This document shows, piece after piece, positions 6,068 through 8,741 of a stretch of 10,758 nucleotides of DNA. The position numbers were made by a program, and so were the translations under genes. A model generated the notes under the pieces. It searched no databases. It was not told the origin of the DNA and saw nothing but the letters and a program-made list of their open reading frames with translations. Source of the DNA: Bacteroidetes bacterium UBA4408 (lineage in GTDB: Bacteria; Bacteroidota; Bacteroidia; UBA4408); NCBI GenBank assembly GCA_002389785.1, contig DGQS01000209.1:1-10758 (forward strand), written 5' to 3'. Each line of letters starts with the position of its first letter. Position 1 is the stretch's first letter.

Positions 6068-6075
6068 GAAGCATG
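6068..6075. repeat. Target-site duplication, left copy
   Basis: GAAGCATG directly abuts the left inverted repeat of the element and is repeated exactly at 8734-8741. Eight base pairs is within the range known for IS1-family insertions (8-9 bp). The perfect match suggests a fairly recent insertion without later end rearrangement. Confidence 0.95.
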
Positions 6076-6093
6076 GGTAGTGTCTCAGTTTGA
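6076..6093. repeat. Left terminal inverted repeat
   Basis: GGTAGTGTCTCAGTTTGA is the exact reverse complement of 8716-8733. Identity stops sharply after 18 bp. This is the transposase recognition end, with the GGnnnTG tip expected for IS1-like enzymes. Confidence 0.95.
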
Positions 6094-6128
6094 AATTAAG
6101 TGAATTTTTTTTCAAAGTAAATGTAATG

Positions 6129-6136
6129 TAACTTTG
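6129..6136 (+). promoter_or_regulatory. -7 box for the small basic protein gene
   Basis: TAACTTTG is a perfect TAnnTTTG match four bases before the first ATG (6141). Transcription would begin at or next to that ATG, so either the mRNA is leaderless or translation starts at the second ATG (6156). No good -33 TTG is seen at the normal spacing; a T-run lies there instead. Confidence 0.4.
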
Positions 6137-6140
6137 CTTT

Positions 6141-6356
6141 ATGAAAAAAGCAAAGATGCCAGCCGACACTAACCTGCGTGCAAAGCGGATAGTAGATTTC
6201 GCTACAGGCGAAAACCCTGACCTAGACCCAGACCCGATTAAGAATAAAGCAGCCGTTGAATTAGGTAAATTAGGCGGGGAGGCAAGAGCTAAAAAACTTA
6301 CTCCTAAAAAAAGAACTGAAATAGCTAAGAAAGCTGCTCAAAAAAGGTGGAGCTAA
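6141..6356 (+). CDS. Small basic protein, transposon cargo (function unknown)
   Basis: A 71-aa lysine/arginine-rich protein (66 aa if it starts at the ATG at 6156). It has two parts: an N-terminal segment MPADTNLRAKRIVDFATGENPD, and a basic C-terminal helix with the pattern LGKLGGEARAKKLTPKKRTE followed by IAKKAAQKRW. Small bacterial proteins with this LGxxGGxxRAxKLTxxxRxxIAKKAAxxRW ending are often annotated as histone H1-like or RNA-binding on the strength of the Lys/Ala-rich tail. That label is composition-driven and no function is established. It likely binds nucleic acid. Its stop codon overlaps the stop of the convergent membrane-protein gene by three bases (6354-6355 shared, 6353-6356 region), leaving no room for a terminator. 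Similar proteins usually begin at the MPxDTN motif, which favours the second ATG. Confidence 0.7.
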   Translation: MKKAKMPADTNLRAKRIVDFATGENPDLDPDPIKNKAAVELGKLGGEARAKKLTPKKRTEIAKKAAQKRWS

Positions 6357-6829
6357 TCTTCTTTCTTTTTAGGCGGTATAGTATAGTTAGCCTCTAATAT
6401 AGCGAACAAAGCCCTTCCAAGTTCAAGGGTAAGCCAAATAAAATAAATAAATATTGACAAGAGCCCTGTTTCCGTTACCTTTAATATTTCACTTTTGTAG
6501 TTAACGAGCCAATAAACAGCCTTGTTGTAATCGGTGTAATAAAAAACTAATAGGAATACGAGCGCAAAAATAAGCCCGGCTTGAATTTTAAGCTCTCTTA
6601 TCAAGGTGTTTTTAGATTTTTCAAACTTATATCCAGTTTTTTCAGAAACCTTATTAATTAACTCAGCTATCAAGGCTGTACTTGCAATATTTATTGCAAA
6701 AACTCCACAGATTACCTCAAGTAAAGAACCTATTAGGTTTTCAAAAAAAGTAGAACCCAAAGCTCTCGAAATAGAGAACACAATTAAAGAAATTACAATA
6801 CATAAACAGGCGTCTTTTAAATATCTCAT
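6353..6829 (-). CDS. Four-helix membrane protein, transposon cargo; RexB-like architecture
   Basis: A 158-aa hydrophobic protein with four predicted membrane segments, at about residues 7-24, 31-57, 82-99 and 120-145. A charged cytosol-like loop (58-81, KVSEKTGYKFEKSKNTLIRELK) follows the second, and the basic tail is PPKKKED. There is no signal peptide or catalytic motif. Its ATG overlaps the stop of the upstream gene (ATGA), so translation is probably coupled and the two products likely work together. Size (RexB of lambda has 144 aa), four-segment topology and pairing with a ~275-aa soluble protein resemble RexB, the membrane ion channel of the lambda RexAB exclusion system. This is an architectural comparison from memory, not an alignment. 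Alternatives: an immunity protein, a holin-like toxin or an unrelated membrane anchor. Confidence 0.8.
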   Translation of the reverse strand: MRYLKDACLCIVISLIVFSISRALGSTFFENLIGSLLEVICGVFAINIASTALIAELINKVSEKTGYKFEKSKNTLIRELKIQAGLIFALVFLLVFYYTDYNKAVYWLVNYKSEILKVTETGLLSIFIYFIWLTLELGRALFAILEANYTIPPKKKED

Positions 6830-7653
6830 TGGTCGGTATCACTATTAAAGAATTTATCGGCAAATTTTTCAAGCTGGTCATAATCCTCAAAATCAATTTC
6901 CTCAGCCTCGAAGTGTTTTAAAGTACTGCCAGTCTTTTGCATTTTCATCCCCTTCACCCTTATTCCAACGGGCATACCCTGAATGCTTGCAGCCCTATTT
7001 AGATTTACGAGATTTTCATTGTCAGGGTTAATATTTGACAACGTATCACTATTGTTTGCGGTGAACGATATTCCTGCTTCATCGGCATTTAATGACCGTG
7101 TGGCTGCTGTAATATCTTCACTTATATCTCTATGTGCTGATGGAAGATTTGGATAGGTAAATTTAAAGGAAATCTGAGTTATTTTATCCTTGTACCTTTC
7201 GGCTAAATCCCAAAATTCACTTTCTTCTATTTCTCCCTTTATTTCTGCCCTTAAATTATAGTCGTACAGGCTCATATTTAAGGCTCTTTCAAATATCCCA
7301 GCCAATACTTTGCTGTTGGTAAATGCGGTTATGTCCGATTCGATGAAAATACGTTGCTCATTCGGATTATTCCAAATGAAGATACTTGAACTTGGCTCAT
7401 CTTTCACGTGCTGAATATGAAAATCTTTTTCAATTCTTTTCTTTTTTGAGTTAGCAATTCTAAAATAGTATTTACTGTTTTTAAGGGCTATCCCTTTATA
7501 GTTTAAATCTTTGCCCTTGTATTGGACTATTAGCTTCTCATCAAGTATTTTGGAAAAAGTTTCATTCTTGTTTTTCATTGCGTCCTGCCACAATGAAGCA
7601 TCGGAACCAGTAGGTTTAAACTGGATTCTGTATTCATCGAATTTCAATAGCAT
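6826..7653 (-). CDS. Soluble partner protein, transposon cargo; RexA-like hypothesis
   Basis: First gene of the coupled cargo operon, 275 aa from the ATG at 7653. It opens with a strand-like MLLKFDEYRIQFKP, then a charged region with KNSKYYFRIANSKKKRIEK (59-75). A core SSSIFIWNNPNEQRIFIES (88-106) is followed by a helix (111-126). A further strand segment, ITQISFKFTYPNLP (158-171), precedes a polar region and an acidic end. No enzyme motif is visible. The alternation and length recall RexA (279 aa), the DNA-binding sensor of lambda Rex exclusion, and DUF4747-like proteins; neither is proven. A GTG at 7719 would add 22 residues that look like a signal peptide (LRIICFLCLYLPTNSRA) and lies about 20 nt from the promoter. 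I prefer ATG because the strand-rich domain begins there and GTG starts are less common, but the call is open. Confidence 0.75.
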   Translation of the reverse strand: MLLKFDEYRIQFKPTGSDASLWQDAMKNKNETFSKILDEKLIVQYKGKDLNYKGIALKNSKYYFRIANSKKKRIEKDFHIQHVKDEPSSSIFIWNNPNEQRIFIESDITAFTNSKVLAGIFERALNMSLYDYNLRAEIKGEIEESEFWDLAERYKDKITQISFKFTYPNLPSAHRDISEDITAATRSLNADEAGISFTANNSDTLSNINPDNENLVNLNRAASIQGMPVGIRVKGMKMQKTGSTLKHFEAEEIDFEDYDQLEKFADKFFNSDTDQ

Positions 7654-7731
7654 TGCTCTGGAGTTTGTTGGTAGATACAAACAAAGAAAGCAAATTATTC
7701 TTAAGACTTTAATTTCCACTTTAGAACTTTA

Positions 7732-7750
7732 AATTTTGCTTTGCAAAATT
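7732..7750. promoter_or_regulatory. Palindrome overlapping the cargo operon promoter, candidate operator
   Basis: AATTTTGC (7732-7739) and GCAAAATT (7743-7750) form a perfect 8-bp inverted repeat around TTT. Its right arm overlaps the -7 box of the minus-strand promoter, and the whole palindrome covers the predicted transcription start. A dimeric protein bound here would block initiation. The regulator is unknown; one of the cargo proteins (the basic 71-aa protein or the RexA-like protein) is an obvious candidate. Confidence 0.5.
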
Positions 7751-7774
7751 ATATAATAAAACAACTATTTCAAA
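7744..7774 (-). promoter_or_regulatory. Promoter of the two-gene cargo operon
   Basis: The minus strand has TTTG (7774-7771), a 19-bp spacer and TAATTTTG (7751-7744), a perfect TAnnTTTG. It lies in the 150-bp divergent region between the cargo operon and the transposase gene. Transcription should start near 7740, about 20 nt before the GTG at 7719 and 85 nt before the ATG at 7653. Confidence 0.6.
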
Positions 7775-7849
7775 ATATTTTTATATGCTGAATAACAGAT
7801 AGTTAAAATTCATACTGATATTTTATGCTTAGCGGTAAGAATATATATT

Positions 7850-7857
7850 TATATTTG
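7850..7857 (+). promoter_or_regulatory. -7 box of the transposase promoter
   Basis: TATATTTG is a perfect TAnnTTTG match 21 bp before the transposase ATG at 7879, giving a leader of about 15 nt. The -33 region (around 7825-7831) has no good TTG, which suggests a weak promoter, as expected for a transposase. Confidence 0.45.
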
Positions 7858-7878
7858 TATCAACAAACAACAAAAGCG

Positions 7879-8712
7879 ATGAATAAATTACCATTAGAAA
7901 AGCGAGTACAGATTGTAAACTTACTTGTTGAAGGAAACAGCCTGAGAGCAATTTCCCGCATAACTGGATGCTCAATAAACACAGTAAGCAAGATGCTTGT
8001 GGATATTGGAAAGGCTTGCCAAATCTTCCATGATGAAAAGGTAATTGACGTGAAATCTAAACGCATTCAATGCGATGAAATTTGGAGTTTCGTTTACGCA
8101 AAAGAAAAGAACGTACCAACCGAAATGGAAAACAAGGGAGCTGGCGATGTTTGGACTTGGGTAGGCTTAGACGCTGACACAAAGCTTGTGGTTTCGTATT
8201 TCGTTGGTAACAGAGATGCAGAGAGCGCAAATATTTTTATGCAAGATGTAGCGGGGAGATTAACAAGCCGTGTGCAACTTACAACGGATGGTTATAGAAC
8301 CTACATTGATGCTGTTGATACTGCTTTCGGTGCTGATGTGGATTATGCTATGCTTGTAAAAATTTACGGTTCTGAAACAGGAAATACAGGCAACGAAAGA
8401 AAATATAGCCCTGTTGAATGTTTGGGTGCAAAGAAAAACGTAGTTAGCGGAAACCCTGTCAAGGAACACGTTTCTACAAGTTATGTAGAGCGTCAAAACC
8501 TAACAATGAGAATGCACATGAGAAGATTTACAAGACTTACCAATGCTTTCAGCAAAAAGTTAGAAAACCATTGCTACGCTATTGCCTTACATTTTGTGTA
8601 TTACAACTTTTGTAAAATTCACAAAACTTTGCGTGTAACACCAGCGATGGAAGCAGGGTTAACAAATGATGTAATGGAAATTTCCGATATTGTAGCGTTA
8701 CTTGATAAATAA
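7879..8712 (+). CDS. IS1-family transposase (single ORF, DDE)
   Basis: A 277-aa cut/copy-and-paste recombinase acting on the element's ends. A helix-turn-helix at about 21-45 (SLRAISRITGCSINTVSKML) should bind the inverted repeats. The catalytic triad matches IS1 InsB block by block: Asp66 in CDEIWSFV (DEQWGYV in IS1), Asp137 in LTTDGYRTY (MTDGWPLY) and Glu204 in YVERQNLTMRMHMRRFTRL (RIERHNLNLRQHLARL). A conserved ENHCYAIALHFVYYNF helix follows. Unlike IS1 itself, which needs a frameshift to join InsA and InsB, this enzyme is encoded by one uninterrupted frame. I chose ATG at 7879 (MNKLPLEKR), the family N-terminus, over an upstream ATG at 7825 that would precede the likely promoter. The stop codon is three bases from the right inverted repeat. 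All catalytic residues are present, so it is probably active. Confidence 0.95.
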   Translation: MNKLPLEKRVQIVNLLVEGNSLRAISRITGCSINTVSKMLVDIGKACQIFHDEKVIDVKSKRIQCDEIWSFVYAKEKNVPTEMENKGAGDVWTWVGLDADTKLVVSYFVGNRDAESANIFMQDVAGRLTSRVQLTTDGYRTYIDAVDTAFGADVDYAMLVKIYGSETGNTGNERKYSPVECLGAKKNVVSGNPVKEHVSTSYVERQNLTMRMHMRRFTRLTNAFSKKLENHCYAIALHFVYYNFCKIHKTLRVTPAMEAGLTNDVMEISDIVALLDK

Positions 8713-8715
8713 AAA

Positions 8716-8733
8716 TCAAACTGAGACACTACC
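8716..8733. repeat. Right terminal inverted repeat
   Basis: TCAAACTGAGACACTACC is the exact reverse complement of the left end (6076-6093). It begins just after the transposase stop codon. Confidence 0.95.
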
Positions 8734-8741
8734 GAAGCATG
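8734..8741. repeat. Target-site duplication, right copy
   Basis: GAAGCATG, identical to 6068-6075, abuts the right inverted repeat and confirms both element boundaries. Confidence 0.95.

Follow-up and report, generated by a model that had tools for sequence, protein, structure and literature searches.

Why should a short insertion sequence (IS), lodged between two ordinary chromosomal genes, carry a gene pair laid out like rexAB of phage lambda, and what would that pair do for its bearer? The question is raised by a contig of Bacteroidetes bacterium UBA4408 (DGQS01000209.1), which at its entire length of 10,758 bp is the window analysed here; it belongs to a Bacteroidota assembly of 259 contigs that is 71% complete. 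A sequence-only reading of the window had proposed that a soluble protein and a small membrane protein, encoded together on a mobile element, form an abortive-infection pair analogous or distantly related to lambda RexAB. Our analysis makes it rather probable that the two genes together form an abortive-response module of the RexAB/DUF4747 type, and that this module is cargo of an IS1-type transporter IS.

A gene pair inside an IS1-type element

The IS occupies positions 6076-8733 (2658 bp) between leuS and ftsX. Its features, with the basis of each, are:

6068..6075, no strand: left target-duplication copy, GAAGCATG (printed flanks)
6076..6093, plus strand: left terminal inverted repeat, GGTAGTGTCTCAGTTTGA (end search)
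6141..6356, plus strand: small basic open reading frame (ORF), 71 aa (ORF list; family shared with other elements)
6353..6829, minus strand: four-helix membrane protein, 158 aa, presumed effector in the RexB-like position (ORF, helix segments, AlphaFold2 (AF2) model, profiles)
6826..7653, minus strand: soluble protein, 275 aa, presumed sensor with a predicted RexA-like fold, apparently DUF4747-related (ORF, database copy, AF2 model, fold search, profiles)
7744..7774, minus strand: possible Bacteroidota promoter, TTTG-N19-TAnnTTTG (motif scan)
7825..8712, plus strand: IS1-type DDE transposase, 295 aa (ORF, Pfam, NCBIfam)
8716..8733, minus strand: right terminal inverted repeat, inverse of GGTAGTGTCTCAGTTTGA
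8734..8741, no strand: right target-duplication copy, GAAGCATG (printed flanks)

That the pair rides on a mobile element was borne out. The 18-bp ends form a perfect inverted pair with no mismatches, in a search that tolerated up to three and expected 0.03 chance matches, and both are flanked by the 8-bp target duplication. The transposase matches PF03400 of Pfam at 33.4 bits (cut-off 24.1), while its best NCBIfam model is IS1 at 67.2 bits, below the cut-off of 100. With a DDE transposase, paired ends, a target duplication and enclosed passenger genes, the element is a transporter IS (tIS) of the IS1 family. To its left lie genes for MTHFR, tryptophan dioxygenase, a DUF3108 protein and leuS; to its right lie ftsX and then a DUF3098 gene. 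Three of seven same-family relatives have leuS adjoining ftsX; in the short stretches examined from the other four no leuS match was seen, and neither the transposase nor the soluble protein has a match in the stretches of any of the seven. The IS is present as a single copy in the source genome. In the database, each of the two pair proteins represents two contigs, up to 14,216 bp long; an artefact peculiar to a single contig is thereby excluded.

Both pair frames are intact and run divergently from the transposase gene. The soluble frame (6826-7719, minus strand) would encode 297 aa if read from a GTG; a start at the ATG at 7653 gives 275 aa, in agreement with the length of database copy P0001. 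An ATGA at 6826-6829 is shared between the end of the soluble gene and the start of the membrane gene. The membrane protein has four hydrophobic segments, starting at residues 7, 36, 80 and 126, and its AF2 model consists of four long helices at moderate confidence (predicted local distance difference test (pLDDT) 75, four sequences). The model of the soluble protein is good (pLDDT 82, predicted template modelling score 0.81, six sequences), and the protein retains the family-invariant residues FW 147-148 and PN 168-169. The sizes, helix number and ATGA coupling given by the sequence-only reading are thus confirmed. Positive charge is slightly enriched in the central loop and at the two termini of the membrane protein, which suggests that its ends face inwards (N-in, C-in).

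The pair had also been credited with its own promoter. The Bacteroidota-type promoter motif is TTTG-N19-TAnnTTTG, and one exact copy lies at 7774-7744 (minus strand) in the gap between the divergent genes. With 0.15 copies expected per window, 28 of 200 window shuffles also gave at least one, so the motif is only suggestive as the promoter of the pair.

Relationship to RexAB, DUF4747 and similar pairs

Lambda RexAB resembles the window pair in gene order, in size (279 and 144 aa, against 275 and 158 aa here) and in the four membrane helices of the partner encoded directly downstream, as had been claimed. The predicted soluble structure appears to share the RexA-type fold (PDB 8TWQ) at a moderate Z score and also moderately matches reported fold relatives of RexA, whose two-domain architecture is related to RdgC and Iml3/CHL4; RexA was missing from the top 50 Foldseek matches and was found on a second look. 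The two systems differ in that a 15-base gap separates rexA from rexB where the window genes overlap by ATGA, and in that RexAB is linked to a prophage repressor whereas the window pair sits in an IS between leuS and ftsX. The membrane model was less telling, with no fold match in BFVD at E 0.001 and generic helical bundles only in the PDB, and sequence searches against solved structures gave no match.

Sequence comparison does not place the pair within RexAB. The RexA (PF15969) and RexB (PF15968) models, as searched in Pfam and PADLOC, do not match the window proteins, although lambda RexA and RexB match their own models at 1e-97 and 8.5e-92, and profile comparison to RexA and RexB gave E values of 0.36 and 0.26 against decoys at 0.12 and 0.56. 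Membership in RexA/RexB or in the group of phage CarolAnn was tried by BLASTP, by profile-versus-sequence search and with small profiles (four RexA, four CarolAnn-type and one RdgC sequence), and was rejected as non-significant throughout.

The profile-profile comparison that the sequence-only reading had proposed thus failed for RexA and RexB; for the soluble family against DUF4747 it succeeded. The broad soluble family together with the window protein matches a six-sequence DUF4747 profile at 88% (E 2.8e-6, decoy 0.44), the broad family alone at 81% (E 1.2e-5, decoy 0.34) and the window subfamily alone at 58% (E 9.9e-5, decoy 0.33). The window protein does not reach the gathering cut-off of the Pfam model (PF15931), which matched one of 66 family members at E 0.019. 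This remote profile homology, in the C-terminal half, points to common descent of the soluble family and DUF4747. DUF4747 proteins are of similar length and have a membrane-type gene (judged by eye) directly downstream at six of six loci (L009, L010, L088, L089, L090 and L091). These partners, of 201-265 aa, are longer than the 158-aa window protein and show only a weak profile resemblance: with a partner profile of five sequences, the match was 18% (E 0.0014, decoy 0.25) for the broad membrane family plus window, and E 0.042 (decoy 0.025) for the window membrane subfamily alone. On a Hymenobacter canadensis plasmid (L089:1-8663), the DUF4747 gene and its membrane-type partner stand directly behind restriction endonuclease and DNA methyltransferase genes.

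Soluble proteins paired with four-helix membrane proteins are also known as CarolAnn gp44/gp43, Sbash gp30/gp31, Pseudomonas putida RexABpp and Butters gp30/gp31, which the literature links to RexA or DUF4747 (PMC12894663, PMC7542560, PMC6426606, PMC6426596). The small profiles of the CarolAnn/Sbash group gave no significant match to the window pair. A Rhodococcus plasmid (L094) has a gene 23% identical to CarolAnn gp44, followed by a 183-aa membrane-type frame outside the gene table, so CarolAnn-type pairs may occur on plasmids too.

The sequence-only reading is thus sensible for the most part. In fold and gene layout the window pair looks like a new branch of the RexAB/DUF4747 kind, and by sequence it is not a member of RexAB. 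The suggested relationship to RexAB is supported by layout, a moderate fold match and homology to DUF4747; at the level of sequence, no direct homology to RexA, to RexB or to CarolAnn gp44/gp43 is supported. The further suggestion of a previously undescribed family holds for the curated models searched, since Pfam, PADLOC, NCBIfam and PHROGs offered nothing usable for either protein; it does not extend to depositors' annotation, where the phage-contig member P0103 is labelled DUF4747.

Distribution and neighbourhoods of the pair family

Direct protein searches returned five relatives of the soluble and three of the membrane protein, and initial scans of genomes and viral contigs with a narrow alignment gave none. 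A profile built from the direct relatives matched one of 394 other genomes of the phylum sample (E 4e-39); with that relative added, it reached 132 proteins, 120 of which were listed. Genome scans yielded 35 pair-family loci, whose record titles include Gammaproteobacteria, Bacteroidota, Campylobacterota, Verrucomicrobia and Nitrospirota, and viral-contig scans yielded 17, some from isolate genomes and these probably prophages. Profile comparison links the window subfamily firmly to the broad family, with E 5e-49 on the soluble and E 1e-18 on the membrane side. Among whole genomes, the nearest relative found is that in G517, which matches the window-subfamily profile at E 1.6e-63. A third genome, G583, was left out (E 4e-4 over 91 positions, with internal stops).

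One genome locus with a broken core was set aside. A membrane-type gene of 106-163 aa adjoins the soluble gene in 33 of the 34 intact genome loci, the exception (L030) having a 510-aa frame on the opposite strand immediately behind it. The partner is likewise present at 15 of 17 viral loci; of the other two, one is cut off by the end of its contig and one has a broken core. An overlap of exactly four bases was found at 21 of 33 genome and 12 of 15 viral loci; partner calls used the longest frame, so some other overlaps may reflect the choice of start site. Given this constancy of partner and the frequent overlap, the two genes are a conserved two-gene unit. Not all loci are independent: L024 and L051 share one membrane protein, and L008 and L040 represent a single locus.

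One search counts against a wide spread: member P0031 had no match among 50,697 annotated phage records and matched a single plasmid record of 72,556. For the window soluble protein, tblastn gave only five weak matches on phages (E 0.3-0.8) and none on plasmids.

A survey of neighbours for defence genes covered 107 of the 122 immediate neighbours of the 34 genome loci; the counts come from the best 25 of 110 families and are given by family and not by member, one protein can match several families, and no control set was included. Restriction-modification families head the list (N6_Mtase 5, Methylase_S 5, Eco57I 4, GmrSD_N 3, HsdM_N 3), followed by RhuM, resolvase and Peptidase_S24 with two each. 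The expectation of defence neighbours was borne out in part, in that the context is partly defence-like and mobile, and housekeeping genes occur as well. In an Escherichia coli record the pair follows an integrase gene in a prophage-like region, with icd beyond the integrase. The Gracilimonas locus has a nucleotidyltransferase-HEPN pair one gene further downstream, and in G517 a putAbiC gene (E 1.1e-17) ends where the soluble gene starts or just inside it.

IS ends (up to three mismatches) were found at none of the 34 genome loci, several of whose stretches are short, nor in the G517 stretch, and a single unpaired end occurs at two of 18 viral or prophage loci. As none of these loci has paired IS ends, the RexAB-like pair inside an IS counts as seen once.

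Next to the G517 pair lies a cluster of four genes (L235:457-6770), one of which encodes an ATPase-like protein of 1233 aa. Its gene sizes and an ATP-binding motif seen by eye resemble Wadjet, which we do not claim, as two PDB searches were empty and the JetD_C match of this genome lies outside the cluster. ApeA_NTD1, the N-terminal domain of the anti-phage protein ApeA, matched two of the 66 family members (alignment A5; best E 3.1e-4). Scattered Pfam matches in the same 66 (SH3b_P2 4, CoV_S2 3, DUF6438 2) were taken as chance.

Proposed function and alternative explanations

If the pair works like RexAB, the soluble protein, with its predicted RexA/RdgC-like nucleic-acid-binding fold, would sense phage DNA or a DNA-protein complex and activate its membrane partner, to which it is tied by overlapping genes and conserved pairing. 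By analogy with RexB, CarolAnn gp43 and RexBpp, the four-helix protein would then permeabilise or depolarise the inner membrane, and phage growth would stop. An anti-phage role is what we infer from these systems. For RexAB, CarolAnn, Sbash and RexABpp, PMC12894663, PMC6426606 and PMC6426596 describe the soluble protein as sensor and activator and the membrane protein as effector, and we take this as the most likely wiring here. A single testable hypothesis thus covers RexAB of lambda, DUF4747 and a pair family that no curated model describes: a sensor of RexA-like fold acting with a membrane effector of four helices, in several bacterial phyla and on viral contigs.

The opposite wiring has been put forward for Butters gp30/gp31, whose gene order and number of membrane helices (four) are those of the window pair: there the soluble protein would be the antiviral effector, held at the membrane by its partner until infection (PMC7542560 and PMC12894663). 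We think this improbable for the window pair, given that in RexAB, CarolAnn, Sbash and RexABpp both genes are required and the effector is the membrane protein (PMC12894663). An addiction module, in which one partner is toxic and the other restrains it so that the element is retained with no specific anti-phage role, is somewhat unlikely; it draws on the toxin-antitoxin-like genes in elements with the same ends (SocA/Panacea 1, HTH_3 6 and Peptidase_M78 5 among 38 passengers), and sits poorly with a conserved partner that is a membrane protein tied to a RexA-like fold, and with a family that occurs outside this IS in a prophage-like region and beside restriction-modification genes.

Two further explanations concern the element itself. 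The pair could control transposition or copy number of the IS and have no part in cell defence; it does lie inside the element next to a small accessory ORF, and lambda RexA biases the lambda switch (PMC11077077). The lack of paired ends at the 34 genome, 18 viral or prophage and G517 loci, several of them short stretches, makes such service to the IS very unlikely. That the pair is decayed or inert cargo, as a single-copy element in a 71% complete genome might suggest, is hardly credible with both frames intact and the invariant FW and PN residues in place. The abortive-response module stays the preferred explanation. The window also supplies a concrete, precisely inserted case of a simple IS with defence-like cargo.

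The carrier lineage and its other cargo

The tIS, of the IS1/IS1595 group, are a described class of IS carrying passenger genes, and the window element resembles them in having one transposase, with paired ends and a target duplication around its passengers. It differs in its RexAB-like cargo and in belonging to a lineage marked by a near-constant small ORF. Exact copies of a 17-base part of the IS end were found in at least 120 stretches of viral contigs. The viral and seven genome stretches hold 47 end pairs, 39 with a target duplication of at least six bases. Including the window, 23 elements of 1323-4324 bp have a near-complete transposase, the other 22 being 44-63% identical to that of the window, and the family of the ORF at 6141-6356 is present in 22 of the 23, by a model of 16 sequences taken mostly from elements it then detected. 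These basic proteins are mostly 70-120 aa with a GGKARAxxLTxxxRxxIAxxAAxxRW-like core (window, L108, L135, L155, L180, L199, L203 and others).

Among 49 passenger ORFs, 38 were scanned against Pfam and PADLOC, with counts by family, taken from the best 25 of 32 and of 238 families, respectively, and again no control set. Besides HTH_3 and Peptidase_M78, Pfam gave P63C 3, NYN 2, one each of DNA methylase, SocA/Panacea, AAA_21 (AbiEii-like) and Mrr_cat, and outside defence-type families one Proteasome and one Trypsin_2. PADLOC gave RmrA models with up to five members each (best E 3e-183), RmrT 1, HEC-09 2 and MTase_II 1; its helix-turn-helix (HTH)/ImmA-type models (RmrA, capP, PD-Lambda-2_B) are broad and overlapping, so these counts are non-independent. 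RmrA and RmrT make up the RosmerTA system. RosmerTA features in a paper about phage defence and toxin-antitoxin systems (PMC10440598).

We tentatively propose that an IS1-type lineage with the end GGTAGTGTCTCAGTTTGA and a near-constant small basic protein serves as a shuttle by which single defence or toxin-antitoxin modules pass between phage genomes and chromosomes, with the RexAB-like pair among its cargoes; the small protein may let so short an element keep and mobilise cargo. Searches of open-licence papers gave no description of this lineage, of the small ORF or of cargo with a defence role. Its ends and small ORF together offer a marker for finding further cargo.

Several elements (L105, L108, L149, L155, L180, L188 and L199) carry cargo that by eye resembles HTH plus ImmA/IrrE, and one (L145:3757-7594) encodes an AAA-type ATPase together with a protein resembling Abi, each identified by eye. 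Elements resembling miniature inverted-repeat transposable elements, 277-819 bp long, have the same ends and 8-bp duplications and no complete transposase (L103, L116, L125, L129, L143, L175, L176, L200, L201 and L214); L125, L175, L201 and L214 may be one insertion.
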